A stretch of 43,432 nucleotides of DNA from an uncultured Bacillota bacterium (lineage in GTDB: Bacteria; Bacillota; Dehalobacteriia; UBA7702): positions 1-43,432 of the forward strand of contig CADBQN010000069.1 of assembly GCA_902796855.1 (NCBI GenBank). The letters are read 5' to 3'. Below, one piece after another: positions 10,031 to 41,134 of this stretch. Within the stretch, counting starts at the first letter, position 1, and each line of letters opens with the position of its first letter. The translations under genes were made by a program, and so were the position numbers. The notes below the pieces were generated by a model that made no database searches, was not told the DNA's origin, and saw only the letters and a program-made list of their open reading frames with translations.

Positions 10031-10555
10031 ATGGCCAACATCATTGTGGGAAAGATCCTCTCCGCCCACGGCATCCGCGGCGAGGTGAAAGTGAGGCCCC
10101 TTTCCGATAATCCCCGCCGCTTCCGCCGCGGCGACCGGCTCTGGGTCGAAAAAGAAGAAGCGTATTTCACCGTCGCCTCGGCCCGCGAGGCCAAGGACGG
10201 CGTGCTGATCGTCCGATTCAGGGAGACCGCCGACCGCGACGGAGCCGAAAAACTCAAGACCTCCCTGCTCCTCGTCGGGGAGGAAGACGCCGCCCCGCTC
10301 CCCGAGGGCACGTACTACCATTTTCAGCTTTTGGGCCTCGCCGTCCGTGATGAGGACGGCGCCGACCTCGGCGTCCTCGCCGAGATCATCGAGAGCGGTT
10401 CCAACGACGTGTACCGCGTCGACTGCGGCGACGGCACCTCCTTTCTGCTGCCCGGCCTGAAAGAGGTGGTGCGCGCCGTCGATCTGGAAAACGGGGTGAT
10501 GACCGTGCGTCTGCTGCCGGGGTTAAAGGAGGCCTGCGCGTACCATGAACGTTAA
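10031..10555 (+). CDS. rimM: Ribosome maturation factor RimM
   Basis: Assists 30S head assembly by binding S19 and 16S helices. 174 residues. The N-terminal RimM barrel opens with the typical IVGKILSAHGIRGEVKVRPL. The C-terminal PRC-barrel domain begins near YYHFQLLGLAVRDEDG and holds NDVYRVDCGDG and LLPGLKEVVRAVDLENGVMTV. ATG 10031 follows AAAGGAG. Its end overlaps trmD by 11 bp, so the two are translationally coupled. Confidence 0.97.
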   Translation: MANIIVGKILSAHGIRGEVKVRPLSDNPRRFRRGDRLWVEKEEAYFTVASAREAKDGVLIVRFRETADRDGAEKLKTSLLLVGEEDAAPLPEGTYYHFQLLGLAVRDEDGADLGVLAEIIESGSNDVYRVDCGDGTSFLLPGLKEVVRAVDLENGVMTVRLLPGLKEACAYHER

Positions 10556-11837
10556 GATCTTTACCCTCTTTCCGCCGATGTTCGCCCCGCTGCGGGAGAG
10601 CATCATGGGCCGCGCCGAAAAAAAAGGCCTCGTCTCCTTCGACGTCGTCAACATCAGGGACTACGCCGCCGACCCCCACTTTGCCGACGACACCGTCTAC
10701 GGCGGCGGCGCCGGCATGGTGATGAAGCCGGAGCCGGTGATGAACGCCCTCCGCGCCAAAGGCTGGCGGCCCGGGGCCAAAGTCATCGTCACCACCCCGG
10801 CGGGAAAGCCCTTCACCCAGCGCGAGGCCGCCCGCCTCGCCGCCGAGGAGGAGCTTTTCATCGTCGCCGGTCACTATGAAGGCCTCGACCAGCGCGTTGT
10901 CGATCTCACCGCCGCCGAGGAATTCAGCGTCGGCGATTACGTCCTCACCGGCGGGGAGCTCCCCGCCATGGTGATGACCGACGCCATTGTCCGCCTCATC
11001 GACGGCGTTCTCGGCGACAGCGCCTCCCTGGAGCAGGAGAGCTTCACCGAGGGGCTGCTGGAATATCCCCAGTACACGCGCCCCCGGGTCTACGAGGGAC
11101 GCGCCGTGCCCGACGTCCTCTTCTGCGGCGACCACCGGGTCATCGAGTCCTGGCGGCGGGAGCAGAGCCTCCGCCGCACCTTTGAGAACCGTCCCGACCT
11201 GCTGGAGAAACTGCCCCTCAGCGCGGCGGAACGGGCCGCCGCGGCGGAGCTGGACGAAAAGGCAAGAGAGAAAGTCCCCGTCTACGCCGCCCTCGTCCAC
11301 CATCCCGTCCTCGACCCCAAGGGAAAGACGATCACCACTTCGGTGACGAATCTTGATATCCACGACATCGCCCGGGCCGGCCGCGCCTACGATCTCCGGG
11401 GCTACTTCATCGTCCAGCCCGGAGCGGAGCAGAAGGAGCTGACGAAGAACCTCCTTTCCTATTGGACCGAAGGCCACGGCAGCAAAGTGAACCCCGACCG
11501 CAAAGAGGCCCTTTCCATCGTCTCCGTCGTCGACGGTCTCGCCGACGCCGAAAACGCCGTTGCCGAGCGGGAAGGGGAAAAGCCGCTCCTCGTCGGCACC
11601 TCGGCGAAGATCCGCCCCAACATCGTTTCCTATGAAGAGCTTCGCCGCGTCATGGCCGGGGAGCGCCGCTGTTTCCTGCTGGTCTTCGGCACCGGTCACG
11701 GCCTCACCGAAGAGACGATGGCGCGGATGGACTATGTGCTGAAACCCATCGCCGGCCGCGGCGATTACAACCATCTCTCGGTGCGGAGCGCCGTCTCCAT
11801 CACCCTCGACCGGCTCCTCGGCAGGGGGCTTTCGTAA
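10545..11837 (+). CDS. trmD: TrmD tRNA (guanine-N1-)-methyltransferase fused to a second SPOUT RNA-methyltransferase domain
   Basis: Residues 1 to about 235 are TrmD, which uses SAM to methylate G37 N1 of tRNAs and so prevents +1 frameshifting. [25 protein letters not shown], the knot segment [20 protein letters not shown] and the [12 protein letters not shown] motif are all present. After a charged linker ([18 protein letters not shown]), residues about 245-428 form a second SPOUT-like domain of the PF09936/TM1570 type: [49 protein letters not shown] and [18 protein letters not shown]. The whole is 430 residues, against about 240 for a usual TrmD. Elsewhere the second domain is a separate protein encoded next to TrmD. 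No frameshift or stop is seen at the junction, so it looks like a true fusion. The target of the second domain is unknown. Confidence 0.93.
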
Positions 11838-14353: not shown

Positions 14354-14393
14354 GTAATATTAGGAAAGTCCGTAAGGTTTGGAGGTTCAGCCG

Positions 14394-15953
14394 TTGTTAG
14401 CGAAAGTGCGTACCGTCTCGTTGTACGGTCTGGAATCGCGTATCGTCACCGTGGAGACCGATATCTCCAACGGTATTCCCTGCTTCGACATTGTCGGCCT
14501 GCCCGAAGCGGCGGTCCGGGAAAGCCGGGAGCGGGTCAAGGCGGCGCTGAAAAATTCCGGCTTTGCCTTCCCGGCCAAGCGGATCGTCGTCAATCTCGCC
14601 CCGGCGGATCTGAAAAAGAACGGCACCGGCTTCGATCTGCCCGTCGCCGTTTCCCTCTTGGCCGCCACCGGTCAGCTCAGCGCCGACCGCGTCGGCGAGA
14701 ACGACTTTTTCATCGGCGAGCTCTCTTTGGACGGCTCCGTCACCGCCGTCAACGGCGTGCTGCCGATGGTCGGCGGCGTCTGCGAAAGCTATGGGGAGGA
14801 CGCGGCGGGCCTGCGCCTCTTTCTGCCGAAGGACAACGGCAAGGAAGCCGCCTTCGACGGCCGCGGCCGTGTCTACGGCGTCTCTTCCCTGCGGGAACTG
14901 GCGGAAGCCCTCGCCGCCGACGCGCTGCCGGAACCGGTCCGCGTCGGCGAGGAGGAACTCGCTTTTGATACCGCCGTGTCCGACGGCCTTGTGGATATGA
15001 AGGAGATCAAGGGACAGTCCCAGATCAAGCGGGGGCTGGAGATCGCCGCCGCCGGCGGTCACAACGTCCTGCTCATCGGCGTTCCCGGCAGCGGCAAGAC
15101 GCTGCTGGCCCGGAGCTTCCCGACGATTCTGCCGCCGCTGACGCGGTCGGAAGCGCTGGAAGTCACGGCGCTGCACAGCCTTGCCGGGGAACTCGGCGGC
15201 GAAAGTCTCGTCCGCCGCCGTCCCTTCCGTTCGCCCCATCACACCGCCTCCCCGGTGAGCCTCACCGGCGGCGGCGTCGTCCCGAAGCCCGGCGAGATCA
15301 GCCTCGCCGGTCACGGCGTCCTCTTCCTCGACGAGATCGTGGAATTTCCCAAGAACGTCCTGCAGGTGCTGCGCCAGCCTCTGGAAGACAAGGTCATCCA
15401 CATCGCCCGGGCCTCGGGCTCCTGTTCCTTCCCCGCCGATTTCCAGCTCATCGCCGCCTGCAACCCCTGTCCCTGCGGGTTCTACGGTGACCCCGAGCGG
15501 GAATGTACCTGCACCCAACAGCAGGTGCGGCGCTATTTCAACAAATTAGGCGGCCCTCTGCTGGACCGCATCGACCTGCATATGAACGTGTCCCGGGTCA
15601 GCTACGGCGAGCTCCACGACGAGGAGACCGGCGCTCCCCCGGCGGAGAGCTCCGAAACGATCCGCCGCCGCGTTGCCGCCGCCAGGGAGATCCAGCGCCG
15701 CCGCTACCGGGAGCTGCCCATCGACTGCAACGCCGGTCTCGACCGCCGCTTTATCGCGTCGTTCTGCGGCCTGAACCGGGAAGCCTCCGCCGTGATGGAA
15801 CGTGTCTTTCAGCGGCTGGATCTCAGCGCCCGCGGTCACGACCGCGTCCTCAAAGTGGCCCGCACCATCGCCGACCTCGCCGGGGAAAAGGACATCCGGA
15901 GCGAGCACATTCTGGAGGCGGTGCGTTACCGCTCCCTCGACCGCATCGTTTAG
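14394..15953 (+). CDS. comM: ComM/YifB family AAA+ Mg-chelatase-like ATPase
   Basis: Hexameric helicase-like AAA+ ATPase; ComM drives branch migration during natural transformation. 519 residues from TTG 14394, chosen because GGAGGT at 14381-14386 is its Shine-Dalgarno and the product then begins LLAKVRTVSLYGLES, as in homologues. An N-terminal Lon-S5-like (ChlI) domain spans about 1-170. Walker A GVPGSGKT is at about 229-236 and Walker B GVLFLDEI at about 308-315. A Cys-rich NPCPCGFYG...CTC insert and a C-terminal lid domain follow. It lies near dprA, another transformation gene, with three wall-related genes between them. Confidence 0.94.
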   Translation: MLAKVRTVSLYGLESRIVTVETDISNGIPCFDIVGLPEAAVRESRERVKAALKNSGFAFPAKRIVVNLAPADLKKNGTGFDLPVAVSLLAATGQLSADRVGENDFFIGELSLDGSVTAVNGVLPMVGGVCESYGEDAAGLRLFLPKDNGKEAAFDGRGRVYGVSSLRELAEALAADALPEPVRVGEEELAFDTAVSDGLVDMKEIKGQSQIKRGLEIAAAGGHNVLLIGVPGSGKTLLARSFPTILPPLTRSEALEVTALHSLAGELGGESLVRRRPFRSPHHTASPVSLTGGGVVPKPGEISLAGHGVLFLDEIVEFPKNVLQVLRQPLEDKVIHIARASGSCSFPADFQLIAACNPCPCGFYGDPERECTCTQQQVRRYFNKLGGPLLDRIDLHMNVSRVSYGELHDEETGAPPAESSETIRRRVAAAREIQRRRYRELPIDCNAGLDRRFIASFCGLNREASAVMERVFQRLDLSARGHDRVLKVARTIADLAGEKDIRSEHILEAVRYRSLDRIV

Positions 15954-16025
15954 ACAGGAAATCAGCGGCCCGATCCGGGCCGATACGATATCATCCGAAA
16001 ATAAAGAGAAAAGGAATCGGTGAAA

Positions 16026-16793
16026 ATGAAAAAGAAAACCATCATCAACGGCCTGGAAGTCAGCTACATCGAAGAGGGCGAAGGCCGCCCGGTGCTGCTC
16101 CTTCACGGCTGGGGCTGCAACGGCGGCCACTGGCAGCCGCTGACCGACGCTTTAAAGGGTGAGTTCCGCGTCGTCGCCCCGGATCTGCCGGGCTTCGGCG
16201 AAAGCGAGGAACCGCCGGATACCTGGGGGACGGAGGAATACGCCGCCCTCATCGCCGCGCTGATGAAAGCGCTGGGCCTCGAAAAGCCGGTCATCGCCGG
16301 GCACTCCAACGGCGGCCGCGTCGCCATCAGCCTGGCCGCGAAGGGACTGGCGGAAAAGGTGATCCTGACGGACAGCGCCGGCATCAAGCCGCGCCGCTCC
16401 GCCTCGTACTACGCCAAGGTCTATTCCTATAAGGCGATGAAAAAAGCGCTGTCCCTGCCGGGCCTCCGCGGCAAAAAGGAGGAGATCCTGGAACGGCAGC
16501 GGAGCAAAAAAGGCTCCGCCGACTACAACGCCGCCTCGCCGACGATGCGGAGGATCCTCTCCACCGTCGTCAACGAGGACCTCACGCCGGAGCTCGACGC
16601 GATCCGCGTGCCGACACTCCTCGTCTGGGGCAGCGAGGACACGGCGACGCCGCTGAGCGATGGTGAGGAGATGGAAGGAATCTTAAAGAAGAACGGCGTC
16701 GACACGGCGCTCATCGTCTTCCCCGGCCGCGGCCACTTCGCCTTTCTGGAAGAAAAGAACCGCTTCATCAGCGTTTGCAAAGCCTTTATCTGA
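16026..16793 (+). CDS. Alpha/beta hydrolase, unknown substrate
   Basis: Cytoplasmic alpha/beta-hydrolase, 255 residues from ATG 16026; GTG 16020 is also possible, with AAGGA between the two spacings. The oxyanion region is LLLHGWGCNGGHW. The nucleophile elbow GHSNGG gives Ser94, the acid is Asp205 in WGSEDTATPL, and the base is His237 in GRGHFAF. The closest general type is the prolyl-aminopeptidase/epoxide-hydrolase-like group with a small lid. It lies 12 bp before a membrane MurF-like ligase and then a Ddl-type ligase, so the substrate may be a wall precursor, a D-amino-acid ester or a peptide. That is an inference from context only. Confidence 0.85.
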   Translation: MKKKTIINGLEVSYIEEGEGRPVLLLHGWGCNGGHWQPLTDALKGEFRVVAPDLPGFGESEEPPDTWGTEEYAALIAALMKALGLEKPVIAGHSNGGRVAISLAAKGLAEKVILTDSAGIKPRRSASYYAKVYSYKAMKKALSLPGLRGKKEEILERQRSKKGSADYNAASPTMRRILSTVVNEDLTPELDAIRVPTLLVWGSEDTATPLSDGEEMEGILKKNGVDTALIVFPGRGHFAFLEEKNRFISVCKAFI

Positions 16794-16805
16794 GGAGGTA
16801 TCACC

Positions 16806-18422
16806 ATGACTTATACAATCCTTTCCCTCGTCTGGATCGTCGCCGCGGTGCCCTATATGGTCTACGCCGTCGGCCGTCTCGCCGGGGAGCTCCATATGAT
16901 GCAGCAGAACACCTACCGCAACGACCGCTACGGCAGCTGGCTGAAGTCCAAGGGCAAACCGCGCTGGACCGATCTGCTGGCGCTGCTGGCGGCGGTGCCG
17001 CTGTTCCTCGGCGGCCTCGTTCCCGATCTCGTGGCCATCGTCCTCTGGGTGCTGGTCTATCTGATGTTCTTAAAGGGCCGCGACAAAACGCCGGCGAAAA
17101 AGCCTCTGGTTTTTACCGAGCGGGCCACCCGGCTCTACGTCGTCACCCTCGTCATCTTCTTTTTGCCCTCTCTCGCTCTGCTCTTCCTCGTCGTCGCCAA
17201 CTACGGCGCGGGGAACGCCGCCCGGGCGCTGTCGCTGATGATCTTGGCGGCGCTGCCCTTCGCCTCGCCTTTGTTCATGCTGGCCGCCAACACCCTGGCC
17301 CTTCCCTATGAGGAGCACAAGAAGGACCGCTACTTCGCCGAGGCCAAAGAGATCCTCGCCGGGGAAACGGACCTCCTCAAGGTGGCCATCACCGGCAGCT
17401 ACGGCAAGACCTCGGTCAAGCACGTCCTCAACCGCATGCTGGAAGAAAAATACTACACGCTGATGCCGCCGGGCTCCTACAACACGCCGATGGGCATCAC
17501 CCGGATCGTCCGGGAACAGCTGAAACCGATCCATCAGGCCTTCGTCACCGAAATGGGGGCGAAACAGCCCGGGGACATCGCCGAGCTCTGCGATCTCGTC
17601 GGCCCCCGTTACGGGCTGATCACCGCCCTCGGCGAGGCGCATTTAGAGTCCTTCGGTTCCTTTGAGAACATCGCCAAGACGAAATTCGAGCTCATCCACG
17701 CCCTTCCCGCCGACGGCATCGCCGTGCTGAACTTCGACGACGAAGCCATCCGCGCCCGGGCCGGGGAAGCTCCCTGCCGCGTCGTTTCCTACGGCCTTCA
17801 CGGTGAGGACCTCGATTTCTGGGCGGAAAACATCCGCTGCGGCGAACGGGGCATGACCTTTGTCCTCCACTCCAAAGAGGGCGCCGCCGAGGAAATGCAC
17901 ACCCGCCTTTTGGGAGAGCACAACGTTCTGAACATCGTCGGCGCCGCCGCCATGGCCCGGCAGTTCGGCCTTACCTATAAACAGCTGAAACGCGCCGTCG
18001 CCGCCCTGGCCCCGGTGGAACACCGGCTGGAACTGAAGACCACCGCCAACGGCCTCCACATCATCGACGACGCCTTTAACTCCAACCCCGCCGGCGCCGC
18101 CGCCGCCATGGACGTCCTCCGCCAAATCGAGGGCGGACGGAAGTTCCTCATCACCCCGGGTATGGTGGAGCTGGGCGAAAAGGAATTTGAGGAAAACAAA
18201 AAATTCGGCGGTCTCGCCGCCGCGGCCTGCGATTACATCGCTCTCGTCGGCGAACGGCAGACCGTTCCCGTCAAAGAGGGCGTCCTCGAGGCCGGGTTCC
18301 CCGAGGATCATCTCTTTGTGGCGAAGAACCTCAATGAGGCCAACACCTTTGTCTACGGCAAAACCCAAAAGGGCGATTACGTGCTCTACGAAAACGATCT
18401 GCCCGATACGTATAATGAATAA
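16806..18422 (+). CDS. Membrane-anchored MurF-like ligase (Mur ligase family)
   Basis: 538 residues. Residues 1-165 form a membrane domain with about four hydrophobic helices (near 4-24, 56-90, 109-132, 139-163) in place of the UDP-binding N-domain of normal MurF. From about 190 a Mur ligase catalytic core follows: P-loop ITGSYGKTSVKH (about 195-206), NTPMGITRIV, TEMGAKQPGDIAEL, then LLGEHNVLNIVGAAA and HRLELK...IIDDAFNSNP, which closely match MurF. MurF joins D-Ala-D-Ala to UDP-MurNAc-tripeptide using ATP. Here the substrate may instead be membrane-bound, such as a lipid-linked precursor. RBS GGAGG, ATG 16806. The adjacent Ddl-type gene (15 bp downstream) could supply the dipeptide. It may be the main MurF or a specialised second copy; the window cannot tell. 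Confidence 0.85.
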   Translation: MTYTILSLVWIVAAVPYMVYAVGRLAGELHMMQQNTYRNDRYGSWLKSKGKPRWTDLLALLAAVPLFLGGLVPDLVAIVLWVLVYLMFLKGRDKTPAKKPLVFTERATRLYVVTLVIFFLPSLALLFLVVANYGAGNAARALSLMILAALPFASPLFMLAANTLALPYEEHKKDRYFAEAKEILAGETDLLKVAITGSYGKTSVKHVLNRMLEEKYYTLMPPGSYNTPMGITRIVREQLKPIHQAFVTEMGAKQPGDIAELCDLVGPRYGLITALGEAHLESFGSFENIAKTKFELIHALPADGIAVLNFDDEAIRARAGEAPCRVVSYGLHGEDLDFWAENIRCGERGMTFVLHSKEGAAEEMHTRLLGEHNVLNIVGAAAMARQFGLTYKQLKRAVAALAPVEHRLELKTTANGLHIIDDAFNSNPAGAAAAMDVLRQIEGGRKFLITPGMVELGEKEFEENKKFGGLAAAACDYIALVGERQTVPVKEGVLEAGFPEDHLFVAKNLNEANTFVYGKTQKGDYVLYENDLPDTYNE

Positions 18423-18437
18423 GGAGGAGCTAACACT

Positions 18438-19607
18438 ATGAAAACAACAGTCGGCGTTATCTTCGGATTTCCTTCCGTCGAGCATGAGGTGGCGATCATC
18501 TCCGCCCTTCAGGCCATGCACTCCCTGGACGATAAAAAATACGACGTCTTCCCGATCTACGTCAGCAAGGAAGGCGACTGGTACTGGGGCGAGGCGCTGA
18601 CGGACATCGAGCGCTTCAAGGACATCGACGGCCTTCTCACCGAGTGCGAGAAGATCATCGTCTCCCCCAACGCCGAAGACGGCACCGTCTTCGTCTACCC
18701 CCGCTCTTTCCTGAACAAAAAGCCCCTCGCCGTCATCGACGTCTTTCTGCCGGTCTGCCACGGCGCCTACGGGGAAGACGGCTGCCTCCAGGGCTATCTG
18801 GAGCTGACCGGCATTCCCTTTACCGGGCCGTCGGTGATGGCCGCCGCCGCCGCCATGGATAAGGTGACGCAGAAAGCCCTCTGCAAAATGGGGGGCGTGC
18901 CGGTGCTGGACTGCTTCTGGTTCTATTCCGCCCAGTGGGGCGACGGCGAGGACGACATCGTCGCCTACATTGAGCGGAAATTCACCTATCCCGTCATCGT
19001 CAAACCGGCGAACCTCGGTTCCAGCATCGGCATTAAGATCGCCGCCGACCGGGAAGAACTGACCGAAGCCATCGAGACGGCGACGCAGTACGACGATAAA
19101 GTCCTGGTGGAGCACGCCATCGAGCACCTGCGGGAAATCAACGTCGCCGTCCTCGGCGACGCCTGCCGCGCCGAAGTCTCCGAGCTGGAGGAACCGCTCA
19201 ACGCCGGGGAAATTCTGTCTTTCTCCGATAAATACCTGCAGGAGGACGGCGGCAAGTCTTCGGGCATGGCGTCGCTGAAACGGCGCATCCCCGCCGACAT
19301 CCCCGAGGAAACGGCGGAGCGGATCCGCAACTACGCCCTGGATACCTTCTACTGCATGGAAGGGCAGGGGGTGTGGCGCCTCGACTTCATGATCGACGAG
19401 GACAACGGCAAGGTCTACCTCAACGAGGTGAACCCGATCCCCGGCTCCCTTTCCTTCTATCTCTGGGAACCGAAGGGCGTGCCCTATCCCGTCCTGCTGG
19501 ACCGCCTGATTCAGATTGCCCTCCGCTCCAAACAGCGGAGCAAGAACCGCATTTCCTCCTTTACCAGCAACATCCTGGCCCAGGGAGGCTTTAAAGGGAA
19601 AAAATAA
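18438..19607 (+). CDS. D-alanine--D-alanine ligase family protein (divergent Ddl)
   Basis: ATP-grasp ligase joining two D-alanines, 389 residues and slightly longer than usual. Landmarks: Glu15 in PSVEHEVAIISA; VCHGAYGEDGCLQGYLEL; Lys189 in VKPANLGSSIGI; Asp316 in RLDFMID; Glu330/Asn332 in YLNEVNPIPGS. The omega loop keeps Asp264-Lys265-Tyr266. In Ddl the Lys-Tyr pair favours D-Ala-D-Ala, whereas D-Ala-D-Lac enzymes carry Phe at the Tyr position. The C-terminal NPIPGSLSFYLW differs from the usual NTMPGFT, so the enzyme is a distinct branch. It begins 15 bp after the membrane MurF-like gene, with an excellent RBS (AAGGAGG). dprA follows immediately after its stop. Confidence 0.88.
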   Translation: MKTTVGVIFGFPSVEHEVAIISALQAMHSLDDKKYDVFPIYVSKEGDWYWGEALTDIERFKDIDGLLTECEKIIVSPNAEDGTVFVYPRSFLNKKPLAVIDVFLPVCHGAYGEDGCLQGYLELTGIPFTGPSVMAAAAAMDKVTQKALCKMGGVPVLDCFWFYSAQWGDGEDDIVAYIERKFTYPVIVKPANLGSSIGIKIAADREELTEAIETATQYDDKVLVEHAIEHLREINVAVLGDACRAEVSELEEPLNAGEILSFSDKYLQEDGGKSSGMASLKRRIPADIPEETAERIRNYALDTFYCMEGQGVWRLDFMIDEDNGKVYLNEVNPIPGSLSFYLWEPKGVPYPVLLDRLIQIALRSKQRSKNRISSFTSNILAQGGFKGKK

Positions 19608-20720
19608 ATGGAAGGCCGGGACGTGAAGTACCTGATCGCTCTGGGTCAGGTCGACGAGATGGAACAAAAGCACATCGCCGCGCTGACGGATTATTTCGGC
19701 GACGCCGAGACCGCCTGGAAATCGCCGCGCCTCTGGCGGCGGGCCCTGCGGCTGAAAGAGAGCCGGCTGGAACAGATGACCGCCTCCCGCGCGGGTCTGG
19801 ACCCCGACGCCATCGACGCTTACCGCCGAAGCCTCGGCGTAAAGATCACCGTCTCCTCCGACGCTGATTTCCCCGCGTTTCTGCGGAACGTCACCGATCC
19901 GCCCCGGTTCCTCTATTACCTCGGCGCGCTGCCGCCGCCGGAGCGGCTCAGCGTCGCCGTCGTCGGCGCCAGGAACTGCGGCGACTACGGCCGCGACACG
20001 GTGAATCAAATCGTCACCGACCTGGTGACAAAGGCCGGCGTCCACATCGTCAGCGGCATGGCCGAGGGCATCGACGGCGCAGCCCACCGGGCGGCGCTCA
20101 GCGCCGGCGGCTTCACCACGGCGGTGCTGGGCAGCGGCGTCGACGTCGTCTATCCCCCCTGTCACCGCGGGCTCTATCGGGAAATCGCCGCCAAAGGCTG
20201 CGTCCTCAGCGAGTATCCCTTTGGCTGCCCGGCGCTGAAACATCACTTTCCCCGCCGCAACCGCCTCATCAGCGGCCTCGCCGACGGCGTCCTCGTCGCC
20301 GAGGCGCGGCGCAAAAGCGGCACCCTCCACACCGTCGGCCACGGCCTGGAGCAGGGGAAAAACATCTACGCCATCCCCGGCTCCGTCTTTTCGCCGCTGA
20401 GCGGCCTGCCCCACTATCTCATCGAGATGGGCGAGGCCAAATTTACCGCCTGCGCCGACGATATCTTAGAGGACTTCCTCGGCGTCGGCTTTGCCGCCGA
20501 ACGGGAAAGCGGCGGCGAACGGGATCTGACGGCCCTCGCCTCCGACGGGGCGGAGCGCGCCGTTCTGGCGGAGCTCGCCAAGGGCCGCCGCGGCTTCGAC
20601 GAGCTCCTGGACATTTCCGGCCTTTCGGCTCCGGCGCTGACTTCCTTTCTCACCCTCCTCGAGATCGAGGGCGCGGTGAGGGAAACGCCGGGCAATACCT
20701 ATACGCTAACGAATTCATAA
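19608..20720 (+). CDS. dprA: DNA-processing protein DprA (Smf)
   Basis: Binds incoming single-stranded DNA and loads RecA during transformation. 370 residues. The Rossmann-like DprA core has VVGARNCGDYG (about 118-128), SGMAEGIDGAAHRAAL, then FPRRNRLISGLADGVLVAEA and HTVGHGLEQGKNIYAIPGS. An N-terminal SAM-like/HhH region and a C-terminal winged helix (about 310-365, ELLDISGLSAPALTSFLTLLEIEGAV) are present. ATG 19608 directly follows the ddl stop (AAAGGGAA upstream). GTG 19623 is an alternative start. Together with comM it suggests natural transformability, though the core uptake genes are not in the window. Confidence 0.96.
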   Translation: MEGRDVKYLIALGQVDEMEQKHIAALTDYFGDAETAWKSPRLWRRALRLKESRLEQMTASRAGLDPDAIDAYRRSLGVKITVSSDADFPAFLRNVTDPPRFLYYLGALPPPERLSVAVVGARNCGDYGRDTVNQIVTDLVTKAGVHIVSGMAEGIDGAAHRAALSAGGFTTAVLGSGVDVVYPPCHRGLYREIAAKGCVLSEYPFGCPALKHHFPRRNRLISGLADGVLVAEARRKSGTLHTVGHGLEQGKNIYAIPGSVFSPLSGLPHYLIEMGEAKFTACADDILEDFLGVGFAAERESGGERDLTALASDGAERAVLAELAKGRRGFDELLDISGLSAPALTSFLTLLEIEGAVRETPGNTYTLTNS

Positions 20721-20736
20721 TTGAGGTGCAACGTAA

Positions 20737-22983
20737 ATGAGCAAATATCTGGTCGTTGTCGAATCGCCGACCAAAGCCAAAACCATCGGCAAACTGCTGG
20801 GAAAGAACTATAAAGTCGTCTCCTCCATGGGCCACGTCCGCGACCTGCCCAAGAGCAAGCTGGGCATCGACGTGGAGAACGGTTTCGAGCCCCACTATAT
20901 CACGATCCGGGGCAAGGGCGAGCTGCTGAAAGACCTGAAAAAAGCCGCGAAAGCCGCGGATAAAGTCTACTACGCCGCCGACCCCGACCGCGAAGGGGAA
21001 GCCATCGCCTGGCATTTAAAACAATATCTGGAAGGGAACAAGGACGGCGTCGACCCCCATCCCGAGGAGCTCTGCCGCATCGAGTTCAACGAGATCACCA
21101 AAGACGCCATCAGGAACGCGGTGAAACATCCCCGCGCCATCGACCTCGACCGCTTCTACGCCCAGCAGAGCCGCCGCGTCCTTGACCGCCTCGTCGGCTA
21201 CAAGATCAGCCCGCTGCTCTGGCGCAAGGTGCGCAAGGGCCTCTCCGCCGGGCGTGTCCAGAGCGTCGCCGTCCGCCTGATCTGCGAGCGGCAGAAGGAG
21301 ATCGACGACTTCAAGCCGGAAGAATACTGGTCGCTGGAAGCCGATTTCCGCCACGGGAACAGCGTCTTCACCGCCAAGCTGGCGAAGATCGCCGGGAAAA
21401 AGGCGGAGATCCCCGACGAAGCGCGGATGAACGATGTCTTAAAGAGCCTGGAGAACGTCGGCTATACCGTTTCTTCGGTGCAGAAAAAGAAAAAGCTCAA
21501 ATCGCCGCCGCCGGCCTTCACCACCAGCGCCCTCCAGCAGGAGGCCAACCAGAAGCTGAACCTCACCGCCAAGCGGACGATGCAGATCGCTCAGCAGCTC
21601 TACGAGGGCATTTCCATCAACGGCAGCAACGTCGGTCTCATCACCTACATGCGCACCGACTCCGTCCGCGTGGCCGCTCCGGCTCAGGACGAGGCGCTGG
21701 CCTACATCGAGGAGACCTACGGTGAGCAATACCGCCCGGCAACGCCGCGGCGCTACGCCGTGGCCGCCAACGCCCAGAACGCCCACGAGGCCATCCGCCC
21801 CACCTCGGCGCTGCGCTCCCCGGCCTCCATCAAGGACAGCCTGACCCAGCCCCAGTACCGCCTCTATAAGCTGATCTGGGAGCGGTTCATCGCCAGCCAG
21901 ATGGCGGACGCCGATATCCTGAACACCACCTTTGACATCACCGGCGGCGACTGCCTCTTCCGCGCCAGCGGCAGCATCGTGGTCTTCCCCGGTTACATGA
22001 AGCTCTATAAGAGCGAGAACAAAAACGACGAACTGCCCGAAGCGGCCAAAGGCGACGCCCTGACCCTGGTGAAGTTCGACCCCCAGCAGCACTTCACTCA
22101 GGCGCCGCCGGCCTATACCGAAGCGACGCTCATCAAGACGCTGGAAAAGAAGGGCATCGGCCGCCCCTCGACCTACGTTTCCATCATCGAGACCATCGTG
22201 GCCAGAGGCTACGTCTCCCGCCGGGACAAGACATTCCACCCCACGGAGCTGGGCTCCCTCGTCAACGATATGCTGATGGAGCACTTCCCCGACATCCTCA
22301 ACGTGGAATTTACCGCTAAGATGGAAAACGAGCTCGATAAGGTGGAAGAGGGCGACCTCGACTGGCGCGCCGTCCTCCGCGGGTTCTACGGCCCCTTTTC
22401 CGAATCGCTGGAAAAAGCCGAGGAAGCCATCGGCGACGTGGAACTCGTCGACGAGGTCTCCGACGTCATCTGCGAGAACTGCGGCCGCAACATGGTCTAT
22501 AAAATGGGGCGCTACGGGCGGTTTTTAGCCTGCCCCGGCTATCCCGAGTGCAAAAACGTCAAGTCCGTGGACAAGGACGGCAACGTCGAGGAAACGACCC
22601 TCGGCGAAAGCGACGTCACCTGCGAAAAGTGCGGCCGCAAAATGGTGCTGAAAAAGGGCCGCTACGGCAAGTTCTTGGCCTGCCCCGGTTTTCCCGAGTG
22701 CAAAAACGTCAAATCCATCGACGAGGAGATCGGCGTCACCTGCACCGAGTGCGGCGGCGCCCTCGTGAAAAAGCGCGGCAAGCGCGGCCGCGTCTTCTAC
22801 GGCTGCAAAAACTATCCTCAGTGCCGGACGGCCTATTGGAACCTGCCGCTGAACGATGTCTGCCCCGACTGCGGCCGTCACCTCGTGGAAAAGACCGACA
22901 AGAGCGGCAAAAAGATCATCTTCTGCGAAAACAAGGAATGCCCCTCCCAGCGAAAGACCGGGAAGGGGAAAGGGAGTAAATAA
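20737..22983 (+). CDS. topA: DNA topoisomerase I
   Basis: Type IA topoisomerase relaxing negative supercoils. 748 residues. The N-terminal Toprim domain begins LVVVESPTKAKTIGK and includes AADPDREGEAIAWHL. The active-site Tyr is in GLITYMRTDSVR. Three Topo_C zinc ribbons of the type CENCG..MVYKMGRYGRFLACPGYPEC are followed by a fourth Cys-rich repeat (CPDCGRHLVEK...CENKECPSQ), giving four zinc-binding units, and then a Lys-rich tail. ATG 20737 follows GAGGTG. It lies in the conserved dprA-topA-trmFO-xerC order. Confidence 0.98.
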   Translation: MSKYLVVVESPTKAKTIGKLLGKNYKVVSSMGHVRDLPKSKLGIDVENGFEPHYITIRGKGELLKDLKKAAKAADKVYYAADPDREGEAIAWHLKQYLEGNKDGVDPHPEELCRIEFNEITKDAIRNAVKHPRAIDLDRFYAQQSRRVLDRLVGYKISPLLWRKVRKGLSAGRVQSVAVRLICERQKEIDDFKPEEYWSLEADFRHGNSVFTAKLAKIAGKKAEIPDEARMNDVLKSLENVGYTVSSVQKKKKLKSPPPAFTTSALQQEANQKLNLTAKRTMQIAQQLYEGISINGSNVGLITYMRTDSVRVAAPAQDEALAYIEETYGEQYRPATPRRYAVAANAQNAHEAIRPTSALRSPASIKDSLTQPQYRLYKLIWERFIASQMADADILNTTFDITGGDCLFRASGSIVVFPGYMKLYKSENKNDELPEAAKGDALTLVKFDPQQHFTQAPPAYTEATLIKTLEKKGIGRPSTYVSIIETIVARGYVSRRDKTFHPTELGSLVNDMLMEHFPDILNVEFTAKMENELDKVEEGDLDWRAVLRGFYGPFSESLEKAEEAIGDVELVDEVSDVICENCGRNMVYKMGRYGRFLACPGYPECKNVKSVDKDGNVEETTLGESDVTCEKCGRKMVLKKGRYGKFLACPGFPECKNVKSIDEEIGVTCTECGGALVKKRGKRGRVFYGCKNYPQCRTAYWNLPLNDVCPDCGRHLVEKTDKSGKKIIFCENKECPSQRKTGKGKGSK

Positions 22984-22992
22984 GGAAACGCT

Positions 22993-24294
22993 ATGAGTAA
23001 AGTTACGATCATCGGCGGCGGCCTCGCCGGTTCCGAAGCCGCCTGGCAGCTGGCGCGCCGCGGTCACGACGTCCGCGTCTTTGAGATGCGCCCGGCGACG
23101 ATGACCCCGGCGCACAAGACCGGGGGCCTGGCGGAGCTGGTGTGCAGCAACTCCTTCCGCGCCGCCAACGTAGAAAACGCCGTCGGCCTGCTCAAAGAGG
23201 AAATGCGCCGTCTCGACTCGCTGATCATGACGGCGGCGGACGCCGCCCGGGTGCCCGCCGGCGGCTGTCTCGCCGTGGACCGGGTGGCTTTTTCCGCCCT
23301 GATTGAGGAAAAACTCGCCGCCACGGGGAAGGTGGAGATCGTCCGCGAGGAAGTCACCGCCATTCCCGACGACGACATCGTCATCGTCGCCACCGGCCCT
23401 CTCACGGCCCCGGCCCTCGCCGAGGAGCTGGGTAAACTCGCCGGCCGGGAGGATCTCTATTTCTACGACGCCGTGGCGCCCATCGTCTCCGGGGAGTCCG
23501 TCAACATGGACGTGGCCTTTTTCGCCTCCCGCTACGACAAGGGCGACGCCGACTACATCAACTGCCCGATGACGAAAGAGGAGTACGACGCCTTTTACGA
23601 AGCCATCGTCAGCGCCAGGCTCTATGAGCCCCACGGTTTTGAGAAGATCAAATTCTTCGAGGGCTGCATGCCCATGGAAGAAATGGCCGCCCGGGGCCGG
23701 GAAACGATGTGCCACGGCCCCTTAAAGCCCGTGGGCCTCGTCGACCCCCGCACCGGGGAGATGCCCTACGCCGTGGTGCAGCTCCGCCGGGAGGACAACG
23801 AAGGCCAGCTCTATAACATGGTGGGCTTCCAGACCCATCTGCTCCGCGGCGAGCAGGAACGGGTCTTTCGGATGATCCCCGGCCTGGAAAAGGCCGAGTT
23901 CCTCCGCTACGGCATGATCCACCGCAACACCTACATCCACTCACCGAAGATCCTCGACGCCACGATGGAAGCGCGGCACCGTCCGGGGCTCTTCTTCGCC
24001 GGTCAGCTCACCGGCGTGGAGGGGTACGTGGAATCCTCCGCCAACGGTCTGCTGGCGGGGATCAACGCCGCCCGCCGCGCCGAGGGGAGGGAACTCGTCC
24101 TCTTCCCGGCGGAAACGGCCATCGGCGCCCTGGCGCGGTACGTCTCCACCGGCGGCAGCGGCAAATTCGACCCGATGAACATCACCTTCGGCCTGATGCC
24201 GCCGCTGACGGAGCGGATCCGCAAAAAAAAGGAAAAGAACGCCAAGATTGCCGCTCGGTCACTGGAAATCCTCAAAACCATCGACGTTTCGTAA
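22993..24294 (+). CDS. trmFO: Methylenetetrahydrofolate--tRNA-(uracil-5-)-methyltransferase TrmFO
   Basis: FAD- and methylene-THF-dependent formation of ribothymidine at tRNA position 54. 433 residues, the usual length. The FAD-binding Rossmann motif is VTIIGGGLAGSEAAWQLARRG at the N-terminus. The conserved ELVCSNSFRA, FEGCMPMEEMAARG and FAGQLTGVEGYVESSANGLLAG are all present. ATG 22993 lies 9 bp after topA. The position between topA and xerC is standard in Firmicutes. Confidence 0.97.
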   Translation: MSKVTIIGGGLAGSEAAWQLARRGHDVRVFEMRPATMTPAHKTGGLAELVCSNSFRAANVENAVGLLKEEMRRLDSLIMTAADAARVPAGGCLAVDRVAFSALIEEKLAATGKVEIVREEVTAIPDDDIVIVATGPLTAPALAEELGKLAGREDLYFYDAVAPIVSGESVNMDVAFFASRYDKGDADYINCPMTKEEYDAFYEAIVSARLYEPHGFEKIKFFEGCMPMEEMAARGRETMCHGPLKPVGLVDPRTGEMPYAVVQLRREDNEGQLYNMVGFQTHLLRGEQERVFRMIPGLEKAEFLRYGMIHRNTYIHSPKILDATMEARHRPGLFFAGQLTGVEGYVESSANGLLAGINAARRAEGRELVLFPAETAIGALARYVSTGGSGKFDPMNITFGLMPPLTERIRKKKEKNAKIAARSLEILKTIDVS

Positions 24295-40934: not shown

Positions 40935-40965
40935 ATTAAAGTATTTTAATTTCATATTTCTATAT

Positions 40966-41134
40966 GAAGTCCGCAGGAAAAAACAGCCCGTTTCACGGGC
41001 GTTTACCGAAGGAGCGAAACTCTCGGGTGCCAAAGACTGTGGGCGGATAGAACTCTGGAGAATCCCTTTTTTTAAAGGGTGCCGAAGGTGCAAGGTGTGT
41101 TCCACTAATCTCTCAGGCCAAAGGACAGAGCGAC
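40966..41134 (+). ncRNA. Tandem glycine riboswitch
   Basis: Two glycine aptamers in series. Aptamer I is bounded by P1 TCCGC (40970) / GCGGA (41043) and holds ACCGAAGGAGCGAAAC...CTCGGGTGCCAAAGAC. Aptamer II is bounded by CTCTG (41053) / CAGAG (41126) and holds GTGCCGAAGGTGCAAGG...CTCTCAGGCCAAAGGACAGAG. The repeated CCGAAGG and CAGGc-aAAGGACaG cores are diagnostic. A terminator and an AGCS symporter gene follow, so glycine controls uptake or efflux of small amino acids by transcription attenuation. Whether it is an ON or OFF switch cannot be settled by eye. Confidence 0.93.

Follow-up and report, generated by a model that had tools for sequence, protein, structure and literature searches.

MurF and Ddl act at two of the most conserved steps of cell wall synthesis, with uridine diphosphate (UDP)-N-acetylmuramic acid (MurNAc)-pentapeptide being completed in the cytoplasm. 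A 43,432-nucleotide stretch of DNA from an uncultured Bacillota bacterium (contig CADBQN010000069.1), hereafter the window, raises the question of whether these steps can also be taken by a rather different pair of enzymes. Three co-directional and closely packed genes at positions 16020-19607 of the window encode an alpha/beta hydrolase, a MurF-like ligase with transmembrane helices (TM-MurF) and a D-Ala-D-Ala ligase (Ddl). The first-pass annotation of this cassette had left it undecided between a specialised pathway and the main MurF of the organism in an unusual form. The comparative analysis outlined below points to the latter, and suggests that the cassette probably constitutes a housekeeping D-Ala-D-Ala branch, in which a membrane-integral TM-MurF and a dedicated Ddl would complete the pentapeptide on the lipid carrier.

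Pfam searches matched TM-MurF to Mur_ligase_M (residues 195-384, E 3.4e-44) and Mur_ligase_C (residues 406-527), but yielded no match to the N-terminal, UDP-MurNAc-binding domain of Mur ligases, and the murF model TIGR01143 aligned to the protein only from model position 71 onward, with a score (238 bits) below its curated cut-off (288.6 bits). This bears out the initial description of a MurF-like protein whose UDP-binding domain has given way to some 165 residues of membrane helices: residues 1-194 lie ahead of the P-loop, and approximately residues 1-165 encompass membrane helices and two conserved basic loops. The ATP and ligase motifs, also described at the outset as retained, are invariant in the 19 homologues aligned (TGSxGKTS, E249, H279, K293 of the TK pair, H372-N373, HR at 406-407, DD at 421-422 and NxNP). 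The same holds for E529, N530, D531, L532 and D534 of a C-terminal ENDLPD motif, located where soluble MurF proteins, such as the one encoded in L218, present KGSR.

The best model and structure matches of TM-MurF were to MurF, above other Mur ligases. In the phylogenetic analysis, TM-MurF sequences formed a single clade on the MurF side (Shimodaira-Hasegawa approximate likelihood ratio test, SH-aLRT, 97), and MurF and TM-MurF were jointly separated from MurE; this tree used MurE as its sole outgroup after a motif filter had removed 11 canonical and 7 MurE rows, and does not fix the branch point of TM-MurF inside MurF. The protein is not of the MurT type: it scored 26.5 bits of 800 with the MurT model, showed no MurT-type C-terminal domain in Pfam and has the hydrolase and Ddl as neighbours. 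A stand-alone Mur ligase of 379 residues, with middle and C-terminal domains only, was observed in another genome (G102, L217:2544-3680), where it defines a long branch of the MurF tree.

The window genome is 98.4% complete, and its Mur ligases comprise MurE, MurD, MurC, a probable FolC and TM-MurF. No canonical MurF was found in this genome, making TM-MurF its only MurF candidate. Because the murE-mraY junction of this genome is broken by a contig end within a dispersed intergenic repeat (G000:C81 end, L006:160-544; C62 start, L007:1-480), close relatives were used to decide on the presence of murF. The compared genomes are largely metagenome-assembled, and gene names outside the window were judged by eye from sequence starts and motifs, except where a family search is given. 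The contiguous cluster of G001 (PBP-murE-mraY-murD-ftsW-murG-murC-murB-murA, PBP denoting a penicillin-binding protein) lacks murF, and murE lies directly beside mraY, with no murF, in the contiguous assemblies of G042, G041, G031, G027, G025, G008, G032 and G213. The search for a soluble MurF that the first-pass annotation had recommended was hence negative both in the window genome and in the PBP-murE-mraY-murD region of the division and cell wall (dcw) cluster of close relatives, which sustains the main-MurF half of its alternative and disfavors the specialised one.

Across the class of the window organism (43 genomes, 7 families), 33 genomes harbor only TM-MurF (two as fragments), 7 only canonical MurF, none both, and 3, which are 65-90% complete, neither; these counts do not represent independent events, and firmer evidence is provided by the shared chromosomal locus and by contrasts within families f80, f22, f94 and f86. 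In G003 and G004, which encode soluble MurF, a normal ddl-murF pair lies upstream of dprA-topA-trmFO. The hydrolase-TM-MurF-Ddl cassette lies upstream of the dprA-topA block in families f1, f3, f4, f5, f6 and f7, with trmFO next in nearly all cases, and is preceded by comM-like genes in f1, f3, f4, f6 and f7 and, among the f5 loci viewed, in G027. This is a single D-Ala-branch locus for which two alternative gene sets exist, the cassette having replaced ddl-murF in place.

The same three genes, in the same order, were also identified in eight genomes from seven other Bacillota families: G290 and G219 (f80), G213 (f94), G233 (f101), G180 (f86), G067 (f32), G399 (f103) and G403 (f22). Four of these seven families include a carrier without the intact soluble MurF that its sister genera encode. 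In f22, f86 and f94 the sister genera have only soluble MurF and the carriers G403, G180 and G213 only TM-MurF. In f80, murF is intact in the sisters G165, G194, G331 and G333 and in pieces in G332, whereas both carriers retain murF remnants between murE and mraY: a 266-residue frame without P-loop or C-terminal domain in G290 (L072:3908-4705) and a 330-residue frame without C-terminal domain in G219 (L073:3745-4734). These decayed frames have the appearance of a displacement of soluble MurF caught in progress. Overall, gene order and motifs of the cassette are maintained over 13 family-level groups, which indicates that it is not a chance arrangement and agrees with the coupling of hydrolase, ligase and Ddl noted initially. 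The comparison shows that TM-MurF, its catalytic residues intact, takes the place of soluble MurF on a one-gene-for-one basis and is inherited together with a distinct Ddl and a serine hydrolase. It is this replacement, the mutual exclusivity of both forms and the intact catalytic residues that indicate that the cassette performs the MurF and Ddl functions.

The cassette Ddl matched PF01820 and PF07478, satisfied general D-Ala-D-Ala ligase models and scored 299 bits with the curated Ddl subfamily model NF002528 (cut-off 262). As first described, it combines an intact omega-loop Lys-Tyr pair (DKY) with an unusual substrate loop: instead of the usual NTxPGFTxxSMYPxLW, the second-subsite loop of the window Ddl (PGSLSFYLW) is four residues shorter, and its Tyr falls on what we take to be the position of Ser281 in Escherichia coli DdlB. 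The pattern PGS[LMI][SA][FY]YL[WF] is diagnostic, occurring in 19 of 19 cassette Ddls and in none of the nine others compared, and a C-terminal tail, YxxN[IL]L..G.KG.K, is likewise present in cassette Ddls and absent from the non-cassette Ddls compared. Insertions rich in Lys and Gly, of variable length, directly follow DKY in cassette Ddls of f3, f4, f6 and f86 (e.g. L041, L042, L035, L038 and L057). Matches to a DNA pattern for the loop were inspected at six sites in further genomes, none of which encoded a Ddl. The Ddl phylogeny proposed in the first-pass annotation placed the cassette Ddls in one separate clade (SH-aLRT 97), with groupings broadly congruent with those of the TM-MurF tree, and the cassette therefore moves as one unit.

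The cassette Ddl is the sole Ddl found in the window genome and the only Ddl match in 15 of 22 TM-MurF genomes checked. Second Ddls in G002, G007 and G016 adjoin vanW-, vanH- or carboxypeptidase-like genes, as judged by eye. In a separate observation, L157:1-2517 of G002, a TM-MurF genome, contains VanW-, VanH- and VanA-like genes with no soluble MurF, and TM-MurF might there need to accept D-Ala-D-Lac. The third cassette protein, the hydrolase, conserves HGWG, Ser96 (HSxGG), Asp207 and His239 in 21 of 21 aligned cassettes; it is a conserved accessory whose activity can only be guessed at, possibly that of an esterase or peptidase on a side product.

The region preceding the ligase core of TM-MurF appears to be an undescribed membrane domain with no convincing known relative. 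Searches of Pfam and PDB returned no convincing match, the best Pfam hit (E 0.0012) being taken as a chance resemblance among membrane proteins, and among 398 Bacillota genomes the domain was seen only fused ahead of this ligase. Its predicted order comprises TM1, a basic loop (HMxQxxxYRxxRYxxW), a TM2-TM3 hairpin, a second basic loop (KKPLVxTxRxxRL), a TM4-TM5 hairpin and the ligase; this five-helix topology is a synthesis over sequences, single ones showing two to five hydropathy peaks at the cut-off used. In 19 aligned rows, H30, M31, Q33 and Y37 of the first loop are invariant (an additional homologue, G403, has HYLQ), as are T104, R106, R109 and L110 of the second, in which K98, K99, L101 and V102 are almost so. 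Basic residues are concentrated in these two loops and sparse in the outer hairpins. The TM2-TM3 hairpin region is missing from G067 and G233, a loss that amounts to an even number of crossings, and both loops are hence predicted to lie on the catalytic, cytoplasmic side.

The absence of a UDP-binding domain bears directly on the acceptor of TM-MurF. This domain is also absent from MurT, and the MurT/GatD enzyme accepts lipid I and lipid II for amidation but no UDP-linked precursor (PMC6113224, PMC6085368); the MurT authors regarded the UDP-binding domain as unnecessary and likely to clash with the membrane (PMC6085368, PMC6113224). In addition, Staphylococcus aureus with low murF expression incorporates tripeptide into its wall, so neither lipid linkage nor polymerisation excludes tripeptide units (PMC9603463). 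By analogy with MurT, the loss of the UDP-binding domain makes a lipid-linked acceptor most likely, and the lipid-linked or membrane-bound acceptor proposed in the first-pass annotation stands as a good inference. MurE presents a DNPR motif, which we take to be that for meso-diaminopimelate (mDAP), and the expected acceptor peptide is therefore L-Ala-D-Glu-mDAP.

In the putative mechanism, Ddl would likely join two D-Ala residues, or D-Ala and a close analogue. TM-MurF would then likely activate MurNAc-L-Ala-D-Glu-mDAP at its C-terminal carboxylate, at the expense of ATP, and ligate the dipeptide to it at the inner membrane face. On balance, the acceptor would be the undecaprenyl-linked tripeptide (lipid I or II) generated from UDP-MurNAc-tripeptide by MraY and MurG, and the two conserved basic loops may grip it through its pyrophosphate; completion of the pentapeptide would then follow lipid attachment rather than precede it. 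The wider proposal, that pathway order has been rewired in the whole Bacillota lineage and in scattered cassette recipients, with MraY and MurG using the tripeptide and a membrane-integral MurF with a dedicated Ddl adding D-Ala-D-Ala to lipid I/II, is advanced tentatively, at slightly below even chances.

Several observations weigh against a lipid-level housekeeping branch. G219 retains a MurF-Alr fusion, found in several f80 members, as a second MurF, and G399 keeps, besides TM-MurF, a soluble MurF within a VanRS/VanH/VanA/VanX-like cluster (L218:629-7500), a location for soluble MurF already known from vanI (PMC4229326). No MraY positions separating TM-MurF from soluble-MurF genomes were detected in a small set obtained by motif-based extraction, with several loci lacking a full MraY, and an AlphaFold model based on three sequences (window, L022 and L023) reached a predicted local distance difference test (pLDDT) score of 45, was not used and gives no loop placement near the active site. 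The negative MraY scan and the low-confidence structure keep alive the notion that TM-MurF ligates D-Ala-D-Ala to the ordinary UDP-MurNAc-tripeptide, its middle domain and basic loops binding the sugar nucleotide and its membrane domain serving only as a tether that favors channelling near MraY/MurG. The intact catalytic core and the absence of visible changes in MraY are compatible with this arrangement, and a published study reports a MurG scaffold for cytoplasmic Mur enzymes (PMC6420597). Tethering, however, would not demand that the UDP-binding domain be lost throughout and an unrelated domain take its place, and in MurT that loss accompanies a lipid substrate (PMC6113224), so an ordinary substrate seems rather unlikely.

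It appears more doubtful still that the altered second subsite of the cassette Ddl leads this enzyme to make D-Ala-D-X (X being a residue other than Ala) for a co-adapted TM-MurF, yielding a wall that ends in another residue. The diagnostic Ddl loop, ENDLPD in place of KGSR and the co-inheritance of both enzymes would all fit this explanation, but the omega-loop Lys-Tyr is retained, general D-Ala-D-Ala ligase models are satisfied and no vanH- or vanT-like gene adjoins the cassette. Finally, the contig break at murE-mraY in the window genome could speak for a specialised paralogue that serves in wall modification or immunity, the genuine MurF having been missed in an incomplete assembly. This explanation is largely refuted and highly improbable in view of the murF-less contiguous clusters of relatives, the lack of canonical MurF in every one of the 33 TM-MurF genomes in the class and the same-locus replacement of ddl-murF; the wall-modification side pathway first envisaged is likewise not supported.

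If the acceptor of TM-MurF is indeed lipid-linked, the textbook pathway would be re-ordered in these bacteria. The repeated natural exchange of a soluble MurF for a membrane enzyme shows that the MurF step is replaceable and offers a natural way to ask if a stem peptide has to be complete ahead of lipid attachment, and both MurF inhibitors and annotation based on MurF models could miss bacteria relying on TM-MurF.

Table 1. Coordinates of the cassette, its domains and motifs, and its neighbours in the window.
Feature	Position	Strand	Basis or remark
Alpha/beta hydrolase, Abhydrolase_1 type, cassette gene 1	16020 (GTG) or 16026 (ATG)..16793	+	Pfam and motifs
Membrane-integral MurF-like ligase (TM-MurF), 538 aa	16806..18422	+	Pfam, TIGR model, alignment, tree
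N-terminal membrane domain, residues 1-187, five predicted TM helices	16806..17366	+	Hydropathy, Pfam/PDB searches
Conserved loop 1 HMMQQNTYRNDRYGSW, residues 30-45, predicted cytoplasmic	16893..16940	+	Alignment
Conserved loop 2 KKPLVFTERATRL, residues 98-110, predicted cytoplasmic	17097..17135	+	Alignment
Mur_ligase_M domain, P-loop TGSYGKTS at 17391-17414	17388..17957	+	Pfam
Mur_ligase_C domain (glutamate ligase domain)	18021..18386	+	Pfam
C-terminal motif ENDLPD, where soluble MurF has KGSR	18390..18407	+	Alignment
Cassette-type D-Ala-D-Ala ligase (Ddl), 389 aa	18438..19607	+	Pfam, curated models, tree
Omega-loop Lys-Tyr (DKY), retained	19230..19235	+	Alignment
Shortened second-subsite loop NEVNPIPGSLSFYLW of Ddl	19422..19466	+	Alignment
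Conserved Ddl C-terminal tail SFTSNILAQGGFKGKK	19557..19604	+	Family pattern YxxN[IL]L..G.KG.K
comM-like gene, upstream neighbour	14379..15953	+	Shared by members of each of the six cassette-bearing families in the class
dprA, topA, trmFO, downstream neighbours	19608..24294	+	G003/G004: normal ddl-murF upstream of same block

No terminator-like site was found on the plus strand of the cassette stretch. Elsewhere in the window, positions 10545-11837 contain a TrmD-like open reading frame of 430 residues, above the usual length, with a C-terminal part that by eye resembles a second RNA methyltransferase domain, and positions 40964-41130 contain a tandem pair of glycine riboswitch aptamers.

Searches of the open-access literature did not turn up any account of a membrane MurF, and TM-MurF, judged from its sequence and distribution, appears to be a new MurF variant that is membrane-integral, cassette-borne and displaces the soluble enzyme. 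It resembles MurF (TIGR01143) in its middle and C-terminal domains, catalytic residues, tree placement on the MurF side, pairing with Ddl and status as the sole MurF of the genome, but differs from it in having a membrane domain instead of the UDP-binding N-terminal domain, ENDLPD instead of KGSR, TPGMVELG instead of GDMxELG and a score below the model cut-off. Like MurT of the lipid II isoglutaminyl synthase MurT/GatD, which itself works on lipid I/II (PMC6113224, PMC6085368), it is a Mur ligase without the UDP-binding domain; MurT, however, has no such membrane domain, pairs with GatD and amidates D-Glu, whereas the cassette lacks GatD and its ligase is nearest to MurF. The ddl-murF operon (S. 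aureus ddlA-murF, PMC9603463; G003/G004) couples the same two activities, in G003/G004 at the same chromosomal site, but the cassette presents the reverse order, an added hydrolase and divergent versions of both enzymes. Lastly, van clusters with their own murF, such as vanI of Desulfitobacterium (PMC4229326), also combine a ligase and MurF in a gene set able to move between genomes; unlike them, the cassette has no VanH/VanX, VanT/VanXY or VanRS neighbours and appears to be a housekeeping set.

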